From Methanosarcina spelaei (GTDB lineage Archaea > Halobacteriota > Methanosarcinia > Methanosarcinales > Methanosarcinaceae), in assembly GCF_002287235.1 (NCBI RefSeq), contig NZ_LMVP01000312.1:1-34385 (forward strand): a DNA stretch of 34,385 bases, given 5' to 3'. Of the stretch, positions 2,694 to 29,691 are shown in pieces. A model generated the notes under the pieces. That model saw nothing but the letters and a program-made list of their open reading frames with translations, was not told the origin of the DNA and ran no database searches. Made by a program: the position numbers and the translations under genes. Each line of letters begins with the position of its first letter. Within the stretch, counting starts at the first letter, position 1.

Positions 2694-3899
2694 GTGATAA
2701 AATCCATACTTGACAACGACCTTTACAAATTCACAATGCAACTTGCAGTGCTTGAACTTTTTCCTAAAGCTGAGGCCGAGTACAGGTTTACTAACCGGGG
2801 TACCCAGCGCTTTTCGACAGAGTTTGTAGAGAAATTGGAGAAGATAATAAGCGACGAGATCTCGAAGTTAGCATTAACAGAAGAAGAATACAACTGGCTT
2901 TCAGAGAACTGCCCTTACATGAAACCCATGTACCTTGAATACCTCAGGAACTTCCGTTTCAAGCCAGGTGAGGTAAAAGTCTGCCTTACAGAAGAAAAAA
3001 ATCTGGACATTCGGATAAAAGGACCCTGGCACAGCACAATTCTCTGGGAGATTGTACTTATGGCTGCGGTTTCTGAACTCTATTTCACAACTATTGAAAA
3101 AGAGTGGAACGGAAATTTCCAGAAGGGCTGTACTTCCAAATCAGTACTGGATGCTTATGAAAATAAGATTCTTGAGATTGGAAAAGCCCTTGAGGAAAAC
3201 GACTGCTTTTTTTCGGAGTTTGGAACCCGCAGGCGAAGAAGTTCCGAACTCCACGACCATGTAATGAAAACCCTGATAGAGATAAAAACCCTGACAGGAA
3301 CAAGTAATGTGTATTTTGCAAAAAAATACGGCTTGAAACCCATCGGAACCGTAGGGCACGAATGGATTATGGGCACCTCAGCGCTTGTAGGATTAAGGTA
3401 TGCAAACCGTTTCGCTTTTGAAAACTGGGTAGAGGTTTACAACGGGGACCTGGGAATTGCCCTTACGGATACTTTCGGCTCAAAAGCCTTTTTTAAGGAT
3501 ATGGACCTGAGGTTATCAAAAATTTATGATGGGTTCAGGCACGACAGCGGAGACCCTTACGATTTTGTAGATGCTGTGATAGAGCATTACCAGAAAATGG
3601 GTATAGATCCCATGAAAAAGTTAATCGTTTTCAGTGATGCTCTTAATGCAGACACTGCAATCCAACTCAAAAAGTACTGTGAAGGTAAAATCAACTGTAG
3701 TTTCGGCATAGGTACAAGCCTTACCAATAATTCCGATTTTTTCAGGGAAAGCCCTCCTCTTAATATGGTCATAAAGTTGCACAGCATTGACGGTATTCCT
3801 GTTGTAAAACTGAGCGATTCCCCGGAAAAAGAAACAGGAGAAAGAGACGCTATAAGGGTTGCAAATTATATTTTCGGAAGAAAAGGACTCGATGAATAA
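2694..3899 (+). CDS. pncB: Nicotinate phosphoribosyltransferase
   Basis: Converts nicotinate and PRPP to nicotinate mononucleotide, the entry step of the Preiss-Handler NAD salvage route, in the cytoplasm. The 401-residue length matches PncB. Family motifs are clear: DLYKFTMQ at the N-terminus, [13 protein letters not shown] near residue 177, [14 protein letters not shown] with the conserved phospho-accepting histidine near residue 221, [21 protein letters not shown] and FGIGTSLTN near the C-terminus, which binds phosphate. The start is GTG with AGGAAG at 2681-2686 as ribosome binding site. It appears monocistronic; the next gene is convergent. Confidence 0.95.
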
Positions 3900-4001
3900 T
3901 CAAAACGGAAAGCAAAGAGTAATAGCTCGGCTGAGCGGATAAAAAAGGTTCCGCCCCTCCTCCAAAACGGAATTCGTATCTAAACGGAAAAAATAATTAA
4001 T

Positions 4002-4047
4002 AGACCACTTGAGTGAAGAAAAAAAGACCATTTGAGCGAAGTAAAAA
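4002..4047. repeat. Two-copy direct repeat, about 23 bp
   Basis: Two adjacent similar copies (4002-4024 and 4025-4047) follow the pattern AGACCA(C/T)TTGAG(T/C)GAAG with an A-rich tail. They lie in the 238-bp spacer between the convergent pncB and beta-propeller genes, just before a strong hairpin. Confidence 0.7.
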
Positions 4048-4053
4048 GGGCTA

Positions 4054-4083
4054 CGTCCGTCCTCCCGAGACGGGACTCGGACG
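4054..4083. terminator. Strong two-part hairpin between convergent genes
   Basis: An outer stem CGTCCG (4054-4059) pairs with CGGACG (4078-4083), enclosing an inner perfect hairpin TCCCG-AGA-CGGGA (4063-4075). It is unusually GC-rich for this spacer. Its position between two converging genes fits a bidirectional terminator or 3' RNA stabiliser, but there is no long T-run directly after it. It could also be part of a repeated element. Two smaller hairpins lie upstream in the same spacer: GCTC-GGCT-GAGC, and GCGGA paired with TCCGC. Confidence 0.4.
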
Positions 4084-4138
4084 AGGCTGTATTCGAGTGA
4101 CAAAGCATAACTCTAGCTAAAGGTCAGGCGAAGAAGTG

Positions 4139-6547
4139 TTAAACTCGCTTTTTTGCCCCCAAATAAATTAGTAGCGCTAGAAGTGGTAAGGAGATTACTA
4201 TAACACTCTTAATTTTGCCACCAGATTCCTGTTTTTTTCCATTTTCGCCTTTTCCGTTATCTGCTCCAACGCTCAAAGGCTTATTATCCTTGTTTTCGTT
4301 TGTTGAGCTATTCCTATAGGTTTCTTTAAGGCTACTCGTATCCTCAGGATCTTTTTGCTCAATTTTCATCTCTTCAGACGTATTTTCTTCTCTGGTGTAA
4401 GCGGTTATCACAAACGATGAAAAGCCCGGAGTTTTGGCCTCAAAATAGGAGTATTGGTCATCTTCACTTATTTTCTTAACTTCAAGTTTGTTCCAGGAGG
4501 TCTGGTTATATCGCCACAGGCATATTTCAGATTTTTTGTCAATGTTTTCGCTCATCCAGGGTTTTTCTACTTTGAATCCTATACTTGCATTCTCAATGTT
4601 TTCTGACAGGAGAGTTCCTGCATTTCCAACCTGAATATTTACGTTTTTGTATACTTTACCTGGAGGAAGTTGGGGAACCTGGGCAGATTTCTCTTTAAGC
4701 ATTTCGACAGTTGCAGCTGTTCTTTTAAAAGTTTTCTTCGGATCGAATTCAAGACTGATTATACAGGTTGCATTTATAGGAAAATCAAATTTAACATGAG
4801 AACCACTATTGATGTATCTTGATGCTGTTTCTTTGGCGTCAATGTTTCTGGAAGGTTCAAGACTTGTAATTACCCCTCCTCCACTATGTCCTCCGCCTGA
4901 GGAAGAACCGCTTGATGGATTCTCTGTATAAATCCCTTTATTAACCGAATCCCCGTTTACTGTAACAGCCACGTCATCGGGTTTCTTCCAGCCTGAGATT
5001 TCAGAAAACTGGATTATGTAGTTTCCAGCAGTAAGATTATTGACTGTATAATTGCTAGGGTGCCATTCCGTATCAGATCCGGCAGTAATCTTCCATTTTG
5101 CTTTGGTTTCAACAGTCTGAGGTTCAATAATAACTTTCAGGGAAGATTTCGATACGTTAATAGAGTAATTGTAGACATTGAATCCCCGCTGATCAATATC
5201 TTCAGAAATTAGAGGATCCATTTCATAAGTTCCTTCAATGTCGTTTTTGAGGGATGCCCGTGTAAGGAATACAATTTTCTCTGCTCCGCTATTAGGCTTC
5301 ACCGTAATATTAAGAGTTTCTTCCTGTTGCGTATTCCACTGGTATTGTAGCAGTTCAACCGATGGGTATTGTACCGAGATTTCTCCGGTTTTCCCCTGTA
5401 TCAGATCACCTACTGCATATGTTTTGATGTTGCCGCCTGTGCCTTCCACTCTTTCAATTCTCTCACCATTTGGGAAGGAGACTGAAATATAGCCTTCACT
5501 TGAATTTTTACCTTCATTTTTTACGGTTACTGAAATATTTGCAACCTCTTTTTCAAAAATTGTACTAAGGGGTTCGATTTCAACATTTGTGATTTTTGGA
5601 GACGGAACAATATCAGCTGAAGACGCGAGTTCTATTACGGCAATATCTGAGCTATTACCCGAACTGTGTCCTGTAAACACTATTTTTGATCCATCAGGAC
5701 TCCATTTTGGGTAAGCATCAAGTATTCCGAGATTTTCCGTAAGCTTGACCCTGTAATTTCCCTGTATGTCTCTTAGCCAGAGTTCGGGGCTTCCTCCTTC
5801 ATCCGAGACATATACAATCTGTTTTCCGTCAGGACTGAAGGCAGGATTCCACTCGCCATAAGGTGTATCAGTAAGCTGGGTCTGGTTTGTTCCATACCAC
5901 TCTATTGTCCATAGATCGGGTTTCTCTTTTGAGTTATTGGCGCTATATATTACTCTCAGCCCAAGCGGATACCAGTCTTTTCCTGTCCCAATATTTTCTG
6001 AGGTTCCTAGCCTGGTATTATTACTTCCATCCCTATCAACTATCCAGAGTTGAGAAGAAGAGCCTGGTAATTCTTGGGTATGGATTATTTTTAGTCCAAG
6101 ACGGCACCAGGCCCCCCAGCCTTCGGACTTTTGAGGGTCATTTGTTATAGGGGTTGCGATTCCACTGTTCATATCTATTCTGTACAAATCGGACTGAGAG
6201 CCGTCCGATTTTGTTACGATCAGCTCTGTCCCGTTAGGGTTCAGATCGTTAAAACTGGTGAGATTTCCTTCCCCTATTCCTGTTCTCACTGCTTCGCTTC
6301 CATCTGCCTTCATCCTGTACGAACTAAGGGCTCCAGATTCATTATTTTTAACCATATACAAAATATAGTTACCATCTGCAGTCCACACCGGAAATAGTTC
6401 CAGTTCAGGACTGTTGGTAAGAAACTTTATAGTTTTTACAGTAGTGTTTTCAGAAATATTTACTCCATACCCTTCAGCTGCTTCTACAGGCATAGAGAAA
6501 ATTCCAATAATTAATATTAAGCACACACATTTTAAATTACAATCCAT
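4139..6547 (-). CDS. Secreted TolB/WD40-like beta-propeller surface protein with PGF-pre-PGF-like domain
   Basis: The 802-residue protein has an N-terminal signal peptide (hydrophobic core CVCLILIIGIFS, residues 7-18). Residues about 45-310 form a TolB-type propeller with blades of the WSPDGSKIVF kind (FPVWTADGNYILY, FSPDGKQIVYVSDE, WSPDGSKIVFTG). An Ig-like region follows (about 320-400), then a low-complexity linker SSSGGGHSGGG near residue 547, then a region like the PGF-pre-PGF domain of methanogen surface proteins, ending near TPGFSSFVITAY. A charged stretch precedes the C-terminal membrane span VIVISLPLLALLIYLGAKKRV, which would anchor the protein with its bulk outside. Many N-x-S/T sequons suggest glycosylation. 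It is a tandem paralogue of the next gene upstream. The ligand or role is unknown. Confidence 0.85.
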   Translation of the reverse strand: MDCNLKCVCLILIIGIFSMPVEAAEGYGVNISENTTVKTIKFLTNSPELELFPVWTADGNYILYMVKNNESGALSSYRMKADGSEAVRTGIGEGNLTSFNDLNPNGTELIVTKSDGSQSDLYRIDMNSGIATPITNDPQKSEGWGAWCRLGLKIIHTQELPGSSSQLWIVDRDGSNNTRLGTSENIGTGKDWYPLGLRVIYSANNSKEKPDLWTIEWYGTNQTQLTDTPYGEWNPAFSPDGKQIVYVSDEGGSPELWLRDIQGNYRVKLTENLGILDAYPKWSPDGSKIVFTGHSSGNSSDIAVIELASSADIVPSPKITNVEIEPLSTIFEKEVANISVTVKNEGKNSSEGYISVSFPNGERIERVEGTGGNIKTYAVGDLIQGKTGEISVQYPSVELLQYQWNTQQEETLNITVKPNSGAEKIVFLTRASLKNDIEGTYEMDPLISEDIDQRGFNVYNYSINVSKSSLKVIIEPQTVETKAKWKITAGSDTEWHPSNYTVNNLTAGNYIIQFSEISGWKKPDDVAVTVNGDSVNKGIYTENPSSGSSSGGGHSGGGVITSLEPSRNIDAKETASRYINSGSHVKFDFPINATCIISLEFDPKKTFKRTAATVEMLKEKSAQVPQLPPGKVYKNVNIQVGNAGTLLSENIENASIGFKVEKPWMSENIDKKSEICLWRYNQTSWNKLEVKKISEDDQYSYFEAKTPGFSSFVITAYTREENTSEEMKIEQKDPEDTSSLKETYRNSSTNENKDNKPLSVGADNGKGENGKKQESGGKIKSVIVISLPLLALLIYLGAKKRV

Positions 6548-10249: not shown

Positions 10250-10729
10250 TTTTTCTCAGTAGACATTCTTACCTGTCTTTCTTTTCATCTTGTTTTTTCT
10301 TTTTATCTTTCCTTTTTCAAATCCGAGCATACATTTTCTTTCAAAACACAGATTTTAAAATATACCCTTAACCTGAGAGTAACCTACCAAACCGCAAGGT
10401 AAGTGAACTTACATATTATTTGGAATAACAATCTAAAAGTTCATATATCTTAAAATATAACATATTTTAAAATGTTGAATATTAAGAGCTTAGTTTAATG
10501 ATGTAAATAAGGGACATCTGCAACTTTTCAGGCTCGCTTAAACAGATGGGGTCAGTTACGTAAAAACTATACATACCGGGCTAAAAAGCCAGGAATTGAA
10601 AATGTCAATTTTAAAATTAAAAGACTCAGAGACATTCTATTAATTTTGAGTCTATTGGGCTGTATACTCTAAAAATTTTATTTCATGACGGGTCCTGATA
10701 AGCTTACACTACTGGGGGATAGAAGGAAA
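10250..10729. other. Intergenic region upstream of the HEAT-repeat gene
   Basis: No gene seen. There is a short palindrome GTAAGT-GA-ACTTAC at 10399-10412 and AT-rich TAAAATATAACATATTTTAAAATG around 10450-10473. An ATG at 10685 is in frame with the HEAT gene but has no ribosome binding site. Confidence 0.4.
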
Positions 10730-12370
10730 ATGGATGATAATATAAAGAATCTTATTAAAAAATTAGAACGCTCAGTCTTTGCAGGAAACCGGGCAATTGC
10801 TGCTGAAGAACTTGGAAAGCTAGGAGATTCTTATGCTTTACCTGCGCTGATTGAAGCACTTAATGACTCAAACCCAAAGGTGAGAGCTGCCGCCGCAGAA
10901 GCCCTGGGAAAGTTCAATATACCCGGAGCTGTTCCCGGCCTTATAAAAGCGCTTAATGATCCTGATAGTCCTGTGAAAAAGACTGCAATTGCTTCCCTTG
11001 AAAAAATAGGTACACCTGAAGCTATCTCAGGCATTGTGAAATGTTTCGGGGACAGGGATAGGTTTGTTCAGAAGGAAGCAGTAAAATCCTTAATGAGGAT
11101 AGGTTCAAAAGATGCTATCTGTGGCCTTGAAAAAGCCCTGGCTTATCCAGATGATTCGCTTAGAAGGATTTCAATAATAGCCCTTGGGAAAATTGACACT
11201 TATGAAGCCGCTAGCTATCTTGTAAAGGCAATTGAAAACTCGGATAACAAAATAAGGCAGCAAGCCGCCGAAACACTGGGAAAAAGAGGTAAATCGGATG
11301 TGCTTGATGAGCTGATGGAAGTCCTCAGGGACCCAAGACAATCTGTACAGGAAACTGCATCCGAAACGCTTTGCAAAATTGTAAGTGTGTCAACTTCAGT
11401 GCCTGTGATTGTAAAGGCACTCGGAGCTTCGAGCAGGGATGTGAGAAAAGTTTCAATTGAAGTCCTCTGGAAGATAGGAACGCCTGAAGCAGTTTCAGGG
11501 CTTTTGAGAGCTCTGGATGACCCCGACTGGTATCTGAGAAGCCGTGCTGCAGATGCCCTGGGAGATATAGGTTCTCCTGAAGCAGCTCGAGGACTGGTTA
11601 AAGCTTTTGATATATATGAAAACTCTGTAAGAAAGGCGATTACCTGTGCTCTTGGAAAAAGCGGAACCCCTGAAGCCATAGAAGGGCTGATTAAAGCTCT
11701 TAACGACCCTGATAGTTCGGTCAGGGAATCAGCAGTTCTGGGTCTTGGAAAAGCAGGCACCACTGAGGCCATCTCAGGTCTTTTAAAAGCTCTTGATGAC
11801 ACTAAGGCAGCAGTGAGAGAAGCTGCGGCTTCCGCGCTTGGAGATCTCAAAGCGCAGCAAGCTGTTCCGAAATTCGTGGAAATAATTGAGAACCCTGATA
11901 GTCCGATGCAAAAAATCGCAATCTGCTCACTTGAGAAAATTGGTACCCAGGAGGCAGTTTCAGGGCTTATTAGAGCTACTGGAAGTCCAGATGCCTGCGT
12001 GCGAAGAGCTGCATTGAAAGCTCTTGAAAAAATTAATAAATTCAATTCCTCACCTGCAACTACTAATGATAAACCCGAAACTCCTGGAAAGGAGCTTATT
12101 CTTAGGAATTGTTTGAAGGGTGATGATTCTGAAGTTCCGACTGAAACTTCAAATCTCTCAGATGAGATCTGTAGTATGAGTTCTCTAAAAGAGCTTGAAC
12201 TTTCAATTTCTGTTGAAGAAACCAAGGAGTCAAGAGCCCACCAAAGCGCAAGTTACAAGAAAGAGAAAGGAATCGGGATGACCTGCCCATACTGCTCCAG
12301 AAACCTGAATCTTCCCACTGCCCCCAACTTCTGTCCTTTCTGCGGAATGAAGTTGAAGTTGAAATACTAA
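10730..12370 (+). CDS. HEAT-repeat (PBS-lyase-like) protein with C-terminal zinc ribbon
   Basis: The 546-residue protein is built from roughly a dozen 31-residue HEAT-like units with patterns such as AVPGLIKALNDPDSPVKKTA and ALEKIGTPEAISGL, spanning about residues 5-440. These usually form a curved scaffold for protein binding and resemble the repeats of phycocyanobilin-lyase-like proteins; no lyase role is implied in an archaeon. A polar linker follows, then a zinc ribbon, CPYC and CPFC separated by a short loop, at the very C-terminus. I chose the ATG at 10730 (MDDNIKNLIKKLERS) because GAAGG at 10722-10726 precedes it and the extra 15 residues from the ATG at 10685 are not repeat-like. The partner is unknown. 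Confidence 0.85.
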   Translation: MDDNIKNLIKKLERSVFAGNRAIAAEELGKLGDSYALPALIEALNDSNPKVRAAAAEALGKFNIPGAVPGLIKALNDPDSPVKKTAIASLEKIGTPEAISGIVKCFGDRDRFVQKEAVKSLMRIGSKDAICGLEKALAYPDDSLRRISIIALGKIDTYEAASYLVKAIENSDNKIRQQAAETLGKRGKSDVLDELMEVLRDPRQSVQETASETLCKIVSVSTSVPVIVKALGASSRDVRKVSIEVLWKIGTPEAVSGLLRALDDPDWYLRSRAADALGDIGSPEAARGLVKAFDIYENSVRKAITCALGKSGTPEAIEGLIKALNDPDSSVRESAVLGLGKAGTTEAISGLLKALDDTKAAVREAAASALGDLKAQQAVPKFVEIIENPDSPMQKIAICSLEKIGTQEAVSGLIRATGSPDACVRRAALKALEKINKFNSSPATTNDKPETPGKELILRNCLKGDDSEVPTETSNLSDEICSMSSLKELELSISVEETKESRAHQSASYKKEKGIGMTCPYCSRNLNLPTAPNFCPFCGMKLKLKY

Positions 12371-12916: not shown

Positions 12917-13747
12917 TTACATTGCAGTAGCCCTGGCTGAGTGCATTATTTTCCTAAGTTCGTCAAAAGACTTGGCTCTTTTGATATTTCCGATCAGGGT
13001 TGTAAGTCCAGTAATCCTGACGTTGGGCTGTTGATCACTCGCATTTTCGCTTTCGTTTACTCTGGACTTAAGAAGCTCGATTTTCTCCTCAACGGAATTG
13101 AGTACCTTTGTCTGCTCATGGTTTAATAGGATCTCCTTGAGCTCTGCTGCAGTGGAGGCTTCATTCACCTCGGTATACAGGTCTCGAGTTTCAGTAATCT
13201 TCTCATTGAGTTCTTCAGCTTTGCTGCCCTCACAGCCTTCCATAAGCCTGGTTTGAGCAGTTTCGGTTATCTCAGTCATATTCTGGAGGGAATCCATGAT
13301 AACAGCCTTAACGTCAGTAAAATTTTCCTCAGTTATATTTTCAAGCAGGATAAGACAAAACCCATATTTTCCGTCAATCTCCGTTTGCATTTTGTCAGGT
13401 TCAATATGTCTTCCATCATTTTCCATGCTCTCATTTGCCTGTCTGTTTCTAGACAAAACCTTCTGGAGATCAGATGCATTCGAAACCTTACTGACCTCAT
13501 TATAGAGAGTTTGAAGTTCAGTAATTCTCTTACTGATTGAGTCAAGCATATCTGCCTGAATGCCAGTGAAGTTTTCTTTGTCTATATTCCTTGCAGGATA
13601 AGAAGGACAAGATCCCGGATCATAACTCAGGTCCGTCAAGTTTGTCAGGTTTTCGTTTTCTGAAGCAAAAACCTCCGAAGAGATAATACTCAATATAATC
13701 AGCACCATCACAAAACGGGAAATTAACCTTAATACTTTTACTGCCAT
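12917..13747 (-). CDS. Secreted alpha-helical protein with internal duplication, unknown function
   Basis: The 276-residue protein starts with a signal peptide (LISRFVMVLIILSIISSEVFA). The mature part is mostly charged helix. Two related blocks can be aligned: ENFTGIQADMLDSISKRITE... with ELQTLYNEVSKVSNASDLQK, and ENFTDVKAVIMDSLQNMTEI... with TRDLYTEVNEASTAAELKE. A third, shorter element near the C-terminus (GNIKRAKSFDELRKIMHSA) repeats the helix pattern again. Several N-x-S/T sites suggest glycosylation. I do not recognise the family. AGAGG precedes the ATG at good spacing. The next gene upstream on the same strand is the Trp-heptad protein, 526 bases away, so co-transcription is unlikely but a shared surface location is plausible. 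Confidence 0.7.
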   Translation of the reverse strand: MAVKVLRLISRFVMVLIILSIISSEVFASENENLTNLTDLSYDPGSCPSYPARNIDKENFTGIQADMLDSISKRITELQTLYNEVSKVSNASDLQKVLSRNRQANESMENDGRHIEPDKMQTEIDGKYGFCLILLENITEENFTDVKAVIMDSLQNMTEITETAQTRLMEGCEGSKAEELNEKITETRDLYTEVNEASTAAELKEILLNHEQTKVLNSVEEKIELLKSRVNESENASDQQPNVRITGLTTLIGNIKRAKSFDELRKIMHSARATAM

Positions 13748-14273: not shown

Positions 14274-14651
14274 TCAACGGAATCTATTATTATATTCGTT
14301 TAACCATTTCTTATGATTACCTTGCCATTTATTGTATCTGCTTTGCCATTTTTTATAGTTATCTTGCCATTTTTTATATTTGCTTTCCCACTTCTTGTAA
14401 TCGTCACCATGTTTATTACTGTTCCATCTTTGTTTTTCGTTATTCCAGTTTCTTTGCTCGCTATTCCAGCTTTTCTTCTCTTTTTCCCAATTATTCTGTT
14501 CATTTTCCCATTGCTTCTTTTCACTGCCCCATTGCTTCTGAGTTTTTTGCGAAGCTGCACTTACTGATGCAACAGTTACTGACGATACAAAAAAGACCAG
14601 CATCAAAATGCATACAGTCTTCTTAATTTTATCAATGATTTTCTTTCCCAT
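14274..14651 (-). CDS. Secreted tryptophan-heptad coiled-coil-like protein (125 aa)
   Basis: A signal peptide (residues 9-33, ending SVSA or AASVSA) is followed by about 92 residues with eleven tryptophans. They are at positions 41, 48, 55, 62, 69 and 76, then 88, 95, 102, 109 and 116: a strict seven-residue period in two blocks of six and five, separated by a 12-residue step containing HGDD. The other positions are mostly Lys, Glu, Asn, Gln, Ser and Tyr. The first block is WxxEKKx-like, the second WxxxYKK-like. This suggests a long amphipathic helix or coiled coil with Trp at one heptad position. I know no named family for it. AAGGAG before the ATG is a strong ribosome binding site. The protein would be outside the cell. 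Confidence 0.75.
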   Translation of the reverse strand: MGKKIIDKIKKTVCILMLVFFVSSVTVASVSAASQKTQKQWGSEKKQWENEQNNWEKEKKSWNSEQRNWNNEKQRWNSNKHGDDYKKWESKYKKWQDNYKKWQSRYNKWQGNHKKWLNEYNNRFR

Positions 14652-14938
14652 ATGTCCACTCCTTATTTTTTCTACCTTTCTCTACTACCTTATTTTTTTC
14701 TAATAGACAATATTAATAGACATTATTTTATCTGTTTAATGTTGTTGTATCTGATTTGATGTAGTTTAGACTGTTTTTGATGTAGTTTTGAGTTGTTTAT
14801 TTTTTAATTTACTTCCGTAACATATCTGTTGCATGACAATATTTCACCAGTTAGTACTACAATTCACACTTATAGAACTACTGACGATTTTTTAGGTCTA
14901 AATAGGACTTACACACTTGATAAGCAAAATAAAACATA

Positions 14939-15769: not shown

Positions 15770-16219
15770 ATGTGTGTAATTAAGACCTGCAATATCAATT
15801 CGATAGTTCCTGACTCTACTCTCTACGAGTTAATTAAACGGTCTTTGAAAATACTTAAATATGAGAAAAATGTAGCAGGGATAAAAATGCCTGATAACCC
15901 AGAGGAAAAAATGCTTATTTTGCAGCTTTCCGAAGATTCCAGAAAAATTGCCAGGCTTCTTTCAAGTGAGACTTCAATCAGAATTCTCAAACTGCTTAAT
16001 AAGAAGTCGATGTCGGCAGGAAACCTTGCCGATGAGCTTGGAGTGCGTCTGAATACTCTCAAATACAATCTGGACTCTCTTCTGGAAGCCGGAATGATTA
16101 GAGTAAGGCATGTAAAGTGGAGTCAAAAAGGAAGGGAGATAAAAGTTTATGAGGCAGCGAAAAAAGTAATTGTTTTTCTGCCTGCAAAAGAGAGTCTGGA
16201 AACTCCGATTTATTTATGA
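15770..16219 (+). CDS. ArsR-like winged-helix transcription regulator
   Basis: The 149-residue protein has a winged helix from about residue 58 to 140: KIARLLSSETSIRILKLL (helix 1), SAGNLADELGVRLNTLKYNL (helix-turn-helix) and MIRVRHVKWSQKGREIKVYE (wing). This is the ArsR/HTH_20 pattern of archaeal regulators. No metal-binding cysteine cluster is present in the DNA-binding region, so the signal is unknown. GAGG at 15761-15764 precedes the ATG. The N-terminal 40 residues are not part of the fold; a later in-frame ATG (MPDNPEEKM) is possible. It lies just upstream of, and in the same direction as, the lipoprotein and transmembrane regulator genes. Confidence 0.8.
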   Translation: MCVIKTCNINSIVPDSTLYELIKRSLKILKYEKNVAGIKMPDNPEEKMLILQLSEDSRKIARLLSSETSIRILKLLNKKSMSAGNLADELGVRLNTLKYNLDSLLEAGMIRVRHVKWSQKGREIKVYEAAKKVIVFLPAKESLETPIYL

Positions 16220-16416: not shown

Positions 16417-17493
16417 ATGAAAATCAAATTTCTGTCCTTACTCCTTATACTCGCAGCCATTATCGTGATCGTAGGCTGCGTTGATGAGGGGACTCAGAGC
16501 TTTTATTGTAAAGCTCCAGAAGATCTAACTAGGACTATTTTTTTCCCCTATATCGGGCTTCTGAACCATGGGGAATCCGAAATACCAGGCTCACACCCCA
16601 ATGAGCTCCCTCCAGACAGGTTTAATTCAGGCCCTGATTCCATTACTCTGAAAGATGCAACATTCCTTCTTGACAGAAACATCGAAAAAGCAGAAACGAT
16701 TTCGTTAAAGCTTAAAGCCGGGATTGAGCGTTATAAAGCAGAAGGGGAAGATGTTAGCAGACTTGAAGCCCTGCTTGAAGAGTATAACCGTCTTATAAAA
16801 GAAGCAAAGCAATATCGAACCCTTGCGAATACAACTTCAGATGAGGAAAATAACAGCTCAATTGCGAATTCGAGTCAATGTAACAGTTCATCCGAAAATA
16901 TGAAAGTAGATTATTTGATCCGGTCTCAGAAGAGTATGATGCAAGCTAATCATGTCCTGAGAGATATTTTCGAGGAACTTAATTCTCTAATGGGAAGCGA
17001 AGAACTCAACAATACATCCCGGCTTACTTCGACAGGAGAAGGAAAAGCTATTCTTATGGGCAGTTTCACCCTGAATATGCACCTGAAAGACGGAGAAATG
17101 GTAATAATGGGCCTTTCCAGGGACTCCGAAATTGATATAAACGGGGATTATACATTTGAAGAGAATACCGATATGTATGATACGGTGCGCCTTTACCATT
17201 TAAACTCTGCTGATGTGAAGATCTCAGGTTCCCGCAAGACAGTAATGTTAAACAATGAAAATATTACCCTCACTGCGGATGGCGAGGGTTACGTAGCTTT
17301 CCAGGGAGACGGTACCTACAGTGTTGAAGAGGCAGGTAGGATAATGAAAGAAGATAAGTGGGCTAAACCTTTCTTTGAAGAAGGAATGAATCCCCAAAAG
17401 CACGAGCCTGACAGAAATGACAATAATACCGGGTATGGACCAGATAAGAATGACAACGATAATAGTAATCGGCAAAGGAAGGGCATGAAGTAA
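16417..17493 (+). CDS. Putative lipoprotein, unknown function
   Basis: The 358-residue protein has a short signal peptide ending in a lipobox, IVIVGC with Cys21, so it should be lipid-anchored on the outer face of the membrane. Residues about 85-195 are helical with heptad-like character (DRNIEKAETISLKLKAGIER and later MMQANHVLRDIFEELNSLMG). Residues about 205-305 are beta-rich and glycine-spaced (GEGKAILMGSFTLNMHLKDG, GDGTYSVEEAG). The C-terminal 40 residues are Asn/Asp-rich and disordered. I recognise no named domain. The gene ends 85 bases before the chosen start of the transmembrane winged-helix regulator on the same strand, so they probably form an operon. Confidence 0.7.
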   Translation: MKIKFLSLLLILAAIIVIVGCVDEGTQSFYCKAPEDLTRTIFFPYIGLLNHGESEIPGSHPNELPPDRFNSGPDSITLKDATFLLDRNIEKAETISLKLKAGIERYKAEGEDVSRLEALLEEYNRLIKEAKQYRTLANTTSDEENNSSIANSSQCNSSSENMKVDYLIRSQKSMMQANHVLRDIFEELNSLMGSEELNNTSRLTSTGEGKAILMGSFTLNMHLKDGEMVIMGLSRDSEIDINGDYTFEENTDMYDTVRLYHLNSADVKISGSRKTVMLNNENITLTADGEGYVAFQGDGTYSVEEAGRIMKEDKWAKPFFEEGMNPQKHEPDRNDNNTGYGPDKNDNDNSNRQRKGMK

Positions 17494-17578
17494 TATCACG
17501 CTAACAGTGCTTATCCGAAAACAGAATGCAGGAGAGATTTTTTGGAGAAGCAGTGAACGTTCCAGGAGAATATTAAAA

Positions 17579-18997
17579 ATGCCTGGAAAAATAGAAAATC
17601 AATATAAAACTCTGGGTCTATCGAAGATGAATTTAAGGCTGTATATTATTTGTATCGCTGCCGTCGTACTTGCTTTATTAGCAGGACCTGCTTTAGCAGA
17701 TATTACGGCCACAGTTCACGGGACGGCATACAGGTGGGATACCTTCGAGCCTCTAGATAATGCAGTGGTCGAGGTAAATTCTACTCCCTCACAGTCCATG
17801 GTAGCAAAATATGGTGTGTACTCTTTTAATCTGATGCCCGGAGATTATAACATTACAGCCAATTACTATGAGAACAGCAGCATTAAATATTCTGCAAATG
17901 AGAATATTACAGTTAAAGATCAAGGAAAATATTTAGTGGATCTCCTGCTCCTTCCGGTTTATTCGGAAGAACTCATGAGTGATTCCGAACTAAACGGCCT
18001 TTCCGAAAACCCGAACGGAACTGCAAAAAGCACCTCTAACACAACAGATTCGCTAACAGACACATCCACAAGTCCGACAGCAAGCAAAGGTAATTCTAGC
18101 AGCATGTATCTGGCTAACCAAAACATAATTGGCAATATAAATGTAAATTACCTGTTGATAGCAGTCTTTTTACTTCTTATCCTGCTTGCAGCAGGCTACC
18201 GAATCTCCAGAGTGGATAAAAATAGAGAGAAAAATCAGCCTTTTAAAAGTGCACATAAAATCTCAGGTATGGGAGCAGATGAAAAAGTACATACTACAAG
18301 AGATTTTTTCAAACCAGTTAAGGTGCCCGAAATTTCGGTAGAAGTCCATGATGAAAGAGTAGGAGTTCCTCACGAGAGCTTGGAACCCGAGCTAAAATGG
18401 GATTCTCAGGTACAGGAATCTAGGACAAAGCCCTTTGAAACTTCGCCTTTAATAGAACCAATAGCAGATCCTGCGAAAGGGCCTGCAAAAGAATCGATAA
18501 CGGAATCTCTGCAGGAGCCTGCAAAAGAATCGGTAGCGGAATCTCTGCAGGAGCCTGTAAAAGAACCTGTTAATGAACAGGTAAAGTCGACAGTAACAAA
18601 ATTATCATATGGAATCCCGGAAGCGAAAGTGCAGGAAGACTTTGGAGGAATTAAAGCGGACTCTTCGGAAAACAAAACAAAATTGCTCGAATCTGAGCCG
18701 CAAAAAGAGAAACAGGGAGTTCCCTCTGAAGAAGCTGAGAATAAACCTGCAGAGAGTTCTGAAACTGAAACTCCTGTTTCCAGGAAGAAGCTCCCGCTTC
18801 CAGCAGACCTCCAGGAGGTCATGGATATAATTCGAGGCCAGGGAGGCAGGATCACACAGAAAGATTTACGCAGCAAGCTGAAATATTCCGAAGGAAAGGT
18901 TAGCCTCATGCTTGCAGACCTGGAAAGAAGAGAACTGATTGAGAAGTTCAAGCGAGGGCGTGGGAATGTTGTTATCCTGAGAGATGAGGAACGCTGA
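17579..18997 (+). CDS. Transmembrane one-component regulator: outside Ig/carboxypeptidase-regulatory-like domain plus cytoplasmic winged helix
   Basis: The 472-residue protein has an N-terminal hydrophobic signal or anchor (LRLYIICIAAVVLALLAGPA, about residues 19-38) and then a beta-sandwich of the carboxypeptidase-regulatory type (TATVHGTAYRWDTFEPLDNA, MPGDYNITANYYENSS), residues about 42-125. A Ser/Thr/Asn-rich stalk leads to a membrane span (YLLIAVFLLLILLAAGY, about 190-206). The cytoplasmic side has a long charged linker with 12-residue repeats and ends in a winged helix (LPLPADLQEVMDIIRGQGG, LRSKLKYSEGKVSLMLADLE, about 404-470) of the DUF7343/MarR-like kind. This architecture would carry an outside signal directly to DNA. 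The start at 17579 (MPGKIENQ) follows AGGAG at 17564-17568; an upstream GTG at 17507 would add 24 non-homologous-looking residues before the signal peptide. Confidence 0.8.
   Translation: MPGKIENQYKTLGLSKMNLRLYIICIAAVVLALLAGPALADITATVHGTAYRWDTFEPLDNAVVEVNSTPSQSMVAKYGVYSFNLMPGDYNITANYYENSSIKYSANENITVKDQGKYLVDLLLLPVYSEELMSDSELNGLSENPNGTAKSTSNTTDSLTDTSTSPTASKGNSSSMYLANQNIIGNINVNYLLIAVFLLLILLAAGYRISRVDKNREKNQPFKSAHKISGMGADEKVHTTRDFFKPVKVPEISVEVHDERVGVPHESLEPELKWDSQVQESRTKPFETSPLIEPIADPAKGPAKESITESLQEPAKESVAESLQEPVKEPVNEQVKSTVTKLSYGIPEAKVQEDFGGIKADSSENKTKLLESEPQKEKQGVPSEEAENKPAESSETETPVSRKKLPLPADLQEVMDIIRGQGGRITQKDLRSKLKYSEGKVSLMLADLERRELIEKFKRGRGNVVILRDEER
18481..18552 (+). repeat. In-frame 36-bp tandem repeat in the regulator's linker
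   Basis: Two nearly identical 36-bp copies (18481-18516 and 18517-18552) and a diverging third encode 12-residue units like PAKESITESLQE. They lengthen the cytoplasmic linker between the membrane span and the winged helix of the transmembrane regulator. Confidence 0.85.
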
Positions 18998-27008: not shown

Positions 27009-29564
27009 TTAATCAGATTCTTCAAGTTCCTTCAATAGATGTTTACAAAAGTTAATTATCTTTAAGTCTTCAATAGTCTTTCCAATAGCAAGGGATTCCC
27101 TTAAAAGCTTGATTGCTGTTCTTGCCTCTCCAATATCACTATATATTAATCCTAGATTTCCAAGCCGTCTTCCCTCCCCTCGCCTATCTCCTATTTCTTG
27201 GGAAATTATCAATGCCTGTTCATAATATTCAATTGCTTTTCCTGTTTCGCCTAGATCACGATATGCATTCCCTAGATTTACAAGACAATTTCCTTCTCCG
27301 CGTCTGTCTCCAAGTTCCTGGGAGATTTTTATTGCTTGTTTACAATATTGAATTGCTTTTTTCAGTTCACCTAGATCAAAATATGTTGATCCTATATTTA
27401 CAAGACATTTTCCTTCTCCGCGTCTGTTTCCAATTTCTCTGAAAATTTTAAGCGCTTGTTCATAATATTCAATTGCTTTTCTCGGTTTGCCCAGATCGCT
27501 ATATACTAACCCCAGATTTCCAACACTATTTCCTTCTCCATATCTGTCCCCGGCATTCCTGAAGATTTCCAGTGCCTGTCCATAATATTCAATTGCTTTT
27601 CCTGTTTCTCCTAGATCAATATATGCTAATCCCATGTTTCCAAGTTGATTACCTTCTCTGTATTTATCCCCAATTTCTTGGGAGATTCTTATTGCCTGCT
27701 CGTAATATTCAATTGCTTTTCTCAGGTATCCAAGCTGCTGATATGTAAGTCCAAGGTCACCAAAAACAAAACTCTTCATTTCTTTGCTTAAAAGAATTTC
27801 ATCGTTAAGAGGATCTGGTGGCAATAATTGTCTGTACAATGTTATGAGTGTAGTATAGTTTCCCCAAATATCAAGATAAACATGTAGATTTGAGTGAAGG
27901 ATAATCTTTGCAGCTAGATCATATTCTTCTGCTTTGCAGGCGTGATGATGGGCTTCGATTATCGACTGAAGTTCTTCTTTTTTGGTTGGATTTTCCGGTA
28001 GTGGGAGGGAAAGGTAATATTTTACTGCAAGCACATGAGCTTCTTTTTTGTTTTTCAGGTCTTCATAAGAAAATTCTTGGACTAAAGGATGGAGCCAATA
28101 GTTTCCATTACGATCAGTTTCGAGAAGGGATTTATCTAATAGAGCATCAACAGAATCAACGGGAGTGCTGTCTGTAAACATTATTTTGATTGCTTCCAGA
28201 GGTTCAGGCTGACGATAGACCGCAATGCGCTCAAGTAATTCTTTTTCTCCGCCGACCAATTTGTCAAAGAGGAACCTTGCACTTTTAATTCGGTCTTTCT
28301 GGTGCTTTCTAAAAAGACTGAGATCTTTTAATATATTCTCTGCGGTATGTTTTCTCGCGAGTCCGGCAAGAAGTTTTAATGAGAATGGATGTCCGTCTAT
28401 GTTTGTTACAAGGGATTCCAGAATTTTTAATTCAACGCTTTCAAAGCCATTTTCTTTCAGGTAGCTTATAGCAAAGTTTTGTTTAAGACCTCTTATTTGT
28501 TGCTTATTTTCATCCTCAAGCTCATCGATAAGGTATTCTCCGTTATCAAGTAACGGCATAACTCGACTGGTTAGAATAACCGTTGCATTATGAGTATTAT
28601 CCCTGAGAGACCTAAATAAAAGGCCAAGACCTGAATCTATGAAATTCTGTTTCTCATTGATTATGTAACTCAGGTCATCAAAAACCAGCCATAAAGATTC
28701 TCTTTTTCTCAGTTCTTCAGTAAGTCTATTTATATCGGTATTTCCAGCCGGTCTTTTGCCTTTGAAGCTCAGGATTTCGGGGGCTTTCAGATAAGCTGCA
28801 AGTGCTTCAAGCACATCTTCAAGCTTTGCATCTCTATTATGATAAAAGTTAAGCCAGAATGGTTCTGGAACGCCTGTCGGCCTGAAGTTAACAAGAACAC
28901 GTGCTAGAGTCGTTTTTCCAACGCCTGCAATGCCGCTGAAAAGAAGGATTTTGTTTTTCGGAAGGTGCTTGAGAGCTGAAGACAACTCTTCTGCCCTATT
29001 TTCAGTAACAAATTTTACGAGATTTTCGGAATAATCCGGCAGAACAGAAGAGCTGTAACTTTTTAGGACTTCCTGCTGAATTTCTTCCTGTCTCTTCCAG
29101 TCCATGTATTCCTTAATTTTTATCAGTTCCTCACCTTTTACGCCTTCCAGAGTAAGAATAAGATTATTATCACCGAAAATCAGCTGTTTGACAACATCAA
29201 TGTCAATATTTACATTCACAATGAGTTTTATTTCCTTGGCAAGGTCTGGATCTTTGTTCAGTAATTTCAGGATTTCCTGCTGAAGTTCTTCCTCTGCTTT
29301 TGGATCCTGGGAGTTTCTGAGAACTTTTGTAAGTGCTTTTTCGAGAGAGGCACCCATTTTAGGGCTTATTTTCTCCAGCAAAGCCTGTGCTCTTTTCCCA
29401 CTCTCAGAACCGAGTTTTTCAAATGCTTTTTCATAAATCAAATCCACAAGGACTTCTTTGCCTTTGTCAATTGCGGGTTTTCCTGCAATGGACAGGGCAG
29501 ACAAAGCAGGAATGAGAATATTTGTTGCCTGCTGGGCGAGCTGGGCGAGAGCGGCTGGATCCAT
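27009..29564 (-). CDS. STAND-class NTPase (NB-ARC-like) with C-terminal TPR array
   Basis: The 851-residue protein has three parts. The N-terminal 180 residues are helical (DPAALAQLAQQATNILIPAL at the start) with a short beta segment, VNVNIDIDVVKQLIFGDNN, and no named domain. Residues about 190-480 form a P-loop NTPase: Walker A GIAGVGKTT (about 211-219), Walker B LWLVFDD (about 291-297), sensor-like VILTSR, then GHPFSLKLLAGLA, the GxP-type motif of NB-ARC/STAND proteins. A winged-helix-like region follows. Residues about 595-830 are six TPR units of about 40 residues (AIEYYEQALKIFREIG, GDRRGEGNCLVNLG). Such proteins act as signal-activated oligomeric switches; roles include phage defence and regulation. 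The ATG at 29564 has GGAGGAG just upstream. Confidence 0.9.
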   Translation of the reverse strand: MDPAALAQLAQQATNILIPALSALSIAGKPAIDKGKEVLVDLIYEKAFEKLGSESGKRAQALLEKISPKMGASLEKALTKVLRNSQDPKAEEELQQEILKLLNKDPDLAKEIKLIVNVNIDIDVVKQLIFGDNNLILTLEGVKGEELIKIKEYMDWKRQEEIQQEVLKSYSSSVLPDYSENLVKFVTENRAEELSSALKHLPKNKILLFSGIAGVGKTTLARVLVNFRPTGVPEPFWLNFYHNRDAKLEDVLEALAAYLKAPEILSFKGKRPAGNTDINRLTEELRKRESLWLVFDDLSYIINEKQNFIDSGLGLLFRSLRDNTHNATVILTSRVMPLLDNGEYLIDELEDENKQQIRGLKQNFAISYLKENGFESVELKILESLVTNIDGHPFSLKLLAGLARKHTAENILKDLSLFRKHQKDRIKSARFLFDKLVGGEKELLERIAVYRQPEPLEAIKIMFTDSTPVDSVDALLDKSLLETDRNGNYWLHPLVQEFSYEDLKNKKEAHVLAVKYYLSLPLPENPTKKEELQSIIEAHHHACKAEEYDLAAKIILHSNLHVYLDIWGNYTTLITLYRQLLPPDPLNDEILLSKEMKSFVFGDLGLTYQQLGYLRKAIEYYEQAIRISQEIGDKYREGNQLGNMGLAYIDLGETGKAIEYYGQALEIFRNAGDRYGEGNSVGNLGLVYSDLGKPRKAIEYYEQALKIFREIGNRRGEGKCLVNIGSTYFDLGELKKAIQYCKQAIKISQELGDRRGEGNCLVNLGNAYRDLGETGKAIEYYEQALIISQEIGDRRGEGRRLGNLGLIYSDIGEARTAIKLLRESLAIGKTIEDLKIINFCKHLLKELEESD
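27121..27720 (-). repeat. 120-bp in-frame repeats encoding the TPR units
   Basis: A nearly constant block ending ATATTCAATTGCTTTT recurs at exactly 120-bp spacing, ending at 27240, 27360, 27480, 27600 and 27720 (the 27360 copy reads ATATTGAATTG). Each unit encodes 40 residues of TPR. High DNA similarity between units suggests recent duplication or conversion within the STAND gene. Confidence 0.85.
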
Positions 29565-29691
29565 AAACTCCTCCAATTCTTTTTTGGTATTGGAGGCAAG
29601 TAAAATAAATTTTGTTATTTAGAACGACTGGAATAAAAATTCCACAGATTTTGACTTTATTAGGGTTCCGTTTGATAATATTCGAAAATTT

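Follow-up and report, generated by a model that had tools for sequence, protein, structure and literature searches.

Tryptophan heptads in Methanosarcina: a family of exported proteins predicted to form helical hairpins, mostly encoded beside a membrane-anchored regulator

A multigene family of small exported proteins in which tryptophan recurs at every seventh residue, here called the W-hairpin family, was found in Methanosarcina alone. We examined the member encoded in a 34,385-nucleotide stretch of Methanosarcina spelaei (contig NZ_LMVP01000312.1; 'the window' denotes this whole stretch). Tryptophan-cored coiled coils are known chiefly through design work, and literature searches found no published description of the W-hairpin family. 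What is new is the combination of a coiled-coil-like hairpin, a probable all-aromatic core, restriction to one genus and a tie to a regulator. The explanation which we prefer, and which we consider an even call, is that the exported hairpin is a cell-envelope accessory coupled to the adjoining membrane-anchored regulator.

Results and discussion

The W-hairpin gene and its product

The W-hairpin reading frame is a real gene. It is located on the minus strand, starts with an ATG at 14651 and ends at 14274 (14274..14651, stop codon included). It codes for 125 amino acids, i.e. a signal peptide and a mature part of 93 residues with a net charge of +12. The original prediction named no strand; the positions it gave for the 11 tryptophans were exact (41, 48, 55, 62, 69, 76 and 88, 95, 102, 109, 116). 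The gap between the two blocks, from 76 to 88, is 12. In the 93-residue mature sequence nine W/W+7 pairs were observed, compared to a maximum of six among 200,000 shuffles. The signal peptide, MGKKIIDKIKKTVCILMLVFFVSSVTVASVSA, comprises residues 1-32 (14556..14651, minus strand; ...VASVSA-AS). It is of a typical kind, common to the family and to other small exported Methanosarcina proteins, and it bears out the proposal that a small exported protein is encoded. Arm 1 with Trp 41 to 76 follows at 14424..14531 (minus strand; family consensus W-D-N-E-K-K-K), then a turn, NSNKHGD, at residues 77-83 (14403..14423, minus strand; family consensus xNKKHGxD) and arm 2 with Trp 88 to 116 in Tyr(a)/Trp(d) heptads (14277..14402, minus strand). 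The evidence for these parts is the sequence and a position profile for both arms, the family alignment for arm 1 and the turn, and for all three an AlphaFold2 model described below.

Orthologues are present in six other Methanosarcina genomes (94, 95, 81, 79, 59 and 62% identity) and share their neighbours with the window gene. The dN/dS ratio of the mature part among orthologues was 0.05-0.32, scored in the minus-strand frame only, which points to purifying selection. A ribosome-binding site, AAGGAGTGGACAT / AAGGAGTG, is located upstream of the ATG (14657..14664, minus strand) and is kept in all seven orthologous loci; apart from this site no clear conserved operator was detected upstream of the gene across the seven loci. 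Together, orthologues, ribosome-binding site and selection argue that the frame is translated, as had been assumed. An open reading frame of 84 amino acids on the opposite strand (14313-14567, plus strand) is an antisense reading of the same 21-bp repeats.

These repeats raise the question whether the protein is a low-complexity expansion without defined function, in which slippage of a 21-bp unit generated an amphipathic helix and the secretome tolerates it. 21-bp tandem DNA repeats are strong in one of the paralogues on contig C190 (91% matches) and the number of heptads varies among paralogues. Yet the orthologues are under purifying selection, the neighbourhood is common to seven genomes, the turn and the Tyr/Trp residues of arm 2 are conserved and the linkage to a regulator is non-random. 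Thus, we regard this origin as very unlikely. Because the repeats of the window gene are imperfect (75-78% matches) and its protein is under purifying selection, the gene is no recent artefact of repeats. A search for the DNA pattern itself, five TGG codons at 21-base steps, mostly picked up tandem repeats of no relation, and a backward control gave comparable numbers; it was not used.

A family confined to Methanosarcina

A profile built from 31 mature sequences matched in 23 of 31 Methanosarcina genomes; among 393 genomes sampled over the phylum no credible match was obtained outside the genus. All named relatives are from Methanosarcina with the exception of one convergent match (L068, see below). 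A weak match from a sister genus (genome G037, E 1e-8) falls within a DNA repeat of 21 bp that contains stop codons, and is not a gene of the W-hairpin kind. The family is defined by a signal peptide, a heptad stripe of hydrophobic residues in arm 1, an NKKHGxxYxxW turn and a YxxWxxx arm 2, all of which are present in the window protein. The window genome has three members of the Trp-type, namely the window gene and two in tandem on contig C190; a fourth member, on contig C527, is of the Leu-type. One member (L021 / L060:4683-5285) carries many GAGNV/GAGNA repeats between signal peptide and hairpin.

In Pfam the best score was 23.3 bits against a cut-off of 32.6 (DUF3450, DUF6591 and others) and no family was assigned; DUF3450 and DUF6591 were rejected as sub-cut-off matches reflecting coiled-coil composition. 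NCBIfam scores were far below the cut-offs and a sequence search of the PDB gave no significant match. No match exceeded a threshold, but tryptophan heptads also occur in DUF3782; therefore natural tryptophan heptads are not unique to the family. The case in point is the convergent match mentioned above, a PD-(D/E)XK nuclease-like protein from Anaerolineales (L068:4495-5600; Pfam DUF3782, E 4e-17). Its coil has natural W-x6-W heptads (RKWEEQERKWEEQ) with the motif KWEEQ. In contrast to the W-hairpin it is fused to a nuclease-like domain and lacks a signal peptide, the turn and a Tyr/Trp second arm. This is a resemblance, not homology, and the protein was discarded as a relative.

The heptad spacing is kept while the residue is exchanged

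In the 31 proteins 223 of 269 gaps between consecutive tryptophans are exactly seven. The second commonest gap, 12 (24 cases), corresponds to the turn between the blocks; in the aligned family the inter-block gap is constant at 12-13 residues and the turn is conserved. A loss of the seven-residue spacing in homologues was to speak against the original prediction; all 30 further proteins in the alignment retain it, although the residue may be Leu, Phe or Tyr. Where Trp is missing in paralogues, Leu, Phe, Tyr or Met is found at the same positions. A complete Leu-heptad arm 1 (LNNERTQLDAQKTDLEKERLNLNAEKKTL) occurs in L019 and L043, also in L003 (from the window genome), L045 and L047-L050; L025 is likewise a Leu-heptad paralogue. 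These proteins share with the window protein the kind of signal peptide, the turn and the Tyr/Trp-bearing arm 2, yet use Leu as the core of arm 1. The exchange of W, L, F, Y and M at heptad positions indicates that these residues behave as in a coiled-coil core.

The two arms differ. The core position of arm 1 is W in 81%, L in 12% and F in 5%, and the remaining positions are 94-100% polar. In arm 2, position a is Tyr in 92%, followed three residues on by Trp (77%) or Phe (18%) at d, which is a normal a/d pattern. The original description of heptads built on tryptophan only thus holds for arm 1, with one Trp per heptad, and has to be replaced by Tyr(a)/Trp(d) for arm 2. Many paralogues have an additional hydrophobic position e (L/Y/F) in arm 2; the window member lacks most of this stripe. 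Hydrophobic residues with heptad spacing that are exchangeable for Leu are characteristic of coiled coils, whereas the canonical hydrophobic pair at a and d was found in arm 2 but not in arm 1, which has one hydrophobic position per heptad. With a single stripe in arm 1 and an a/d pattern in arm 2 the protein is therefore coiled-coil-like, yet no canonical coiled coil. The heptad counts of arms 1 and 2 correlate with a rho of 0.46, uncorrected for relatedness, which hints weakly at arms that lie together.

The exchange of Trp for Leu also bears on a use as an aromatic relay, in which closely spaced Trp and Tyr residues would serve extracellular electron transfer. Methanosarcina carry out extracellular electron transfer, by a mechanism that is unresolved in Type I species (PMC12369344); this and the predicted all-aromatic core speak for a relay. 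Against it stand the paralogues with Leu for Trp in arm 1, the shortness of the hairpin (roughly 6 nm), the absence of a haem motif and the absence of redox genes from the inspected loci. We consider a relay highly improbable.

A predicted helical hairpin with a probable aromatic core

The mature protein probably folds as a helical hairpin. In the AlphaFold2 model (pLDDT 91.4, pTM 0.74) mature residues 6-44 and 51-92 are helical and NKHGDD connects them; the model is of a monomer and is based on 12 usable sequences, the program may be overconfident on repetitive helices, and a higher oligomer may form. For a type B paralogue with 38% identity the program again gave a pair of helices, though less confidently (pLDDT 80, pTM 0.58). 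The model is in line with the original proposal of an alpha-helical protein with Trp at the heptad core position. The proposed single rod has no place in it, since the two Trp blocks fall on separate arms that run antiparallel in a helix-turn-helix hairpin. An aromatic core of Trp and Tyr is likely, if somewhat less so than the fold. From the helical wheel, burial of the Trp residues would be expected because Trp is the sole hydrophobic residue of arm 1.

No PDB structure was matched significantly by Foldseek; geometrically the best was a generic helix pair. A profile search of PDB sequences gave only non-significant lookalikes (E about 0.1), among them 7boa (CC-Type2-(YaFd)4, E 0.11) and 2guv, a form of the outer-membrane lipoprotein (E 0.12). 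7boa is engineered; its name implies Tyr at position a and Phe at position d. That an engineered aromatic-core coiled coil is among the nearest lookalikes agrees with the view that the pattern is unusual for nature. 1T8Z, reportedly the Trp-zipper of Liu et al. 2004, 2guv and 7boa carry aromatics at the heptad core as the W-hairpin does. These designed or engineered coils are oligomers of separate chains, whereas the W-hairpin is natural, consists of a single chain and has unequal arms, one with Trp only and one with Tyr and Trp. It is no Trp-zipper, in which each a and d position of five separate chains is Trp; it has one Trp position per heptad and one chain with a turn.

Designed aromatic-core coiled coils oligomerise, which would favor self-assembly into a fibre or a multi-hairpin bundle, i.e. 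hairpins stacking by their aromatic faces to form a four-helix bundle or a filament outside the cell. A passage of PMC4619341, citing Liu et al. 2004, gives the Trp-zipper pentamer as a designed aromatic-core oligomer. Further, the extra hydrophobic e position in arm 2 of many paralogues would be exposed in a lone hairpin. On the other hand, the other faces of arm 1 are all polar, a monomeric hairpin is predicted with good confidence and the window member is largely devoid of the extra stripe. On these grounds self-assembly is unlikely.

Linkage to a membrane-anchored regulator

In the window the gene is flanked on one side by a gene for a secreted 276-aa protein without Pfam family (12917..13747, minus strand). 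On the other side are an ArsR-like HTH (HTH_20) regulator (15770..16219, plus strand), a lipoprotein-like protein of 358 amino acids (MKIKFLSLLLILAAIIVIVGC; 16417..17493, plus strand) and a membrane-anchored regulator of type A (17507..18997, plus strand). The latter begins with an export or TM start and a CarboxypepD_reg-like outer domain; after a second TM segment, a long linker leads to a winged helix of the DUF7343 family at the C-terminus (E 2.5e-15). This order is conserved in the orthologous loci, with the 276-aa gene present in most; seven genomes were compared, with incomplete loci in G022 and G005. CarboxypepD_reg (PF13620) was matched by 12 of 21 members of the regulator family (best E 8e-6); the window copy was not among them. 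In the G002 relative of the window regulator (L089) the winged-helix end is about 93-96% identical and the outer part about 45-62%. Its frame is seemingly split; the DNA-binding end is conserved and the sensor end fast-changing.

Each Methanosarcina genome has about three homologues of the regulator, and a regulator is located within 6 kb of 33 of the 51 family genes. Of the 20 loci in complete genomes 13 are linked to a regulator, whereas random placement gave an expectation of 0.15 and never more than 3 in 5000 trials. The linked loci are not independent because they share descent, and the linkage may largely be due to one or two ancestral arrangements which were co-inherited. Type A hairpins (signal MGK..FDRIKK) adjoin type A regulators, the winged helices of which are 75-100% identical to that of the window, and type B hairpins (MKKILGIFLAVCF..) adjoin type B regulators with 51-66% identity. 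The matched pairs look like a duplicated module whose halves were kept together. The 18 family genes without a regulator nearby include nearly all those of the Leu-type, as well as the one copy of genome G001 (5.75 Mb); Leu-heptad paralogues are located away from the regulator, G008 excepted. Conversely, regulator loci without a hairpin exist (L100, L104, L107). In the type B locus of G001 the hairpins are replaced by a pair of different proteins, likewise small, secreted and aromatic and with the same signal peptide; its type A locus is altogether devoid of a hairpin. The hairpin is therefore an exchangeable part of the locus. The tandem replacements (L101:3292-3618 and 3820-4185, plus strand) have WIPGFW/WVPGHW motifs, a different mature part and no Pfam family. 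In many genomes the type B regulator also adjoins a conserved secreted protein of about 111 amino acids with DGYxxGYxDG repeats (L051:8884-9219, minus strand; L097:3689-4015; L101:9033-9377; L103:8332-8667; L113:1865-2191).

From this linkage, a functional coupling of hairpin and regulator appears about evenly balanced. The exported protein of about 93 residues would be a cationic alpha-helical hairpin, in which arm 1 presents a single Trp stripe, one Trp per two helical turns, and arm 2 Tyr (a) and Trp (d). The arms would close antiparallel around an aromatic core, with Lys, Glu and Asn on the other faces. As an anchor is absent, the hairpin presumably stays beneath the S-layer or within the matrix. 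There, the outer CarboxypepD_reg domain of the regulator may sense the hairpin or its ligand; optionally, the regulator may control hairpin production. A possible model is offered by CpxP and Spy, accessory proteins in the envelope-stress systems of bacteria, which are small, exported, basic helical hairpins tied to an envelope-sensing regulator. Their core differs from that of the W-hairpin, and the archaeal neighbor is a one-component membrane-anchored winged-helix protein, not a histidine kinase. The LTxxQ motif of CpxP/Spy is absent from the window protein, no relation in sequence to them was detected, and no significant PDB match was obtained by sequence or fold.

The main rival is a binder of the envelope or matrix, in which the hairpin attaches to methanochondroitin or S-layer glycans as a cross-linker or adhesin. 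The family is multigene, genus-specific and exported, and its 31 mature proteins carry net charges of +4 to +20 and are very rich in Trp and Tyr. The Trp spacing of about 10.4 Å along a helix would be near that of a disaccharide repeat. In many Methanosarcina the cells are coated with negatively charged methanochondroitin composed of GlcA/GalNAc trimers (PMC12369344), which counts for a binder. However, a Trp stripe that is packed inside the hairpin is not free for glycans. Moreover, the family is also present in G001, which may be M. acetivorans C2A. M. acetivorans is reported to lack a methanochondroitin layer (PMC12369344). A binder is thus possible and clearly less probable than the accessory coupled to the regulator.

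The family would be a natural series of coiled-coil cores, produced by evolution through swaps of Trp, Phe, Tyr and Leu at one core position, and useful for coiled-coil rules. The pairing suggests an archaeal route for reading the envelope from outside, of which few components are known, and is directly testable in the genetically tractable Methanosarcina. Only tentatively do we go further and propose a natural class, in which an all-aromatic single-chain hairpin is the dedicated outside signal or effector of a one-component membrane-anchored regulator, the pairs surviving duplication within one genus.

Two other genes of the window may be mentioned. At 10685-12370 (plus strand) a HEAT-repeat protein of 561 amino acids with a zinc-ribbon-like C-terminus (CPYC..CPFC) is encoded, and at 27009-29576 (minus strand) an NTPase-like protein of 855 amino acids with a TTG start and C-terminal tetratricopeptide-like repeats.
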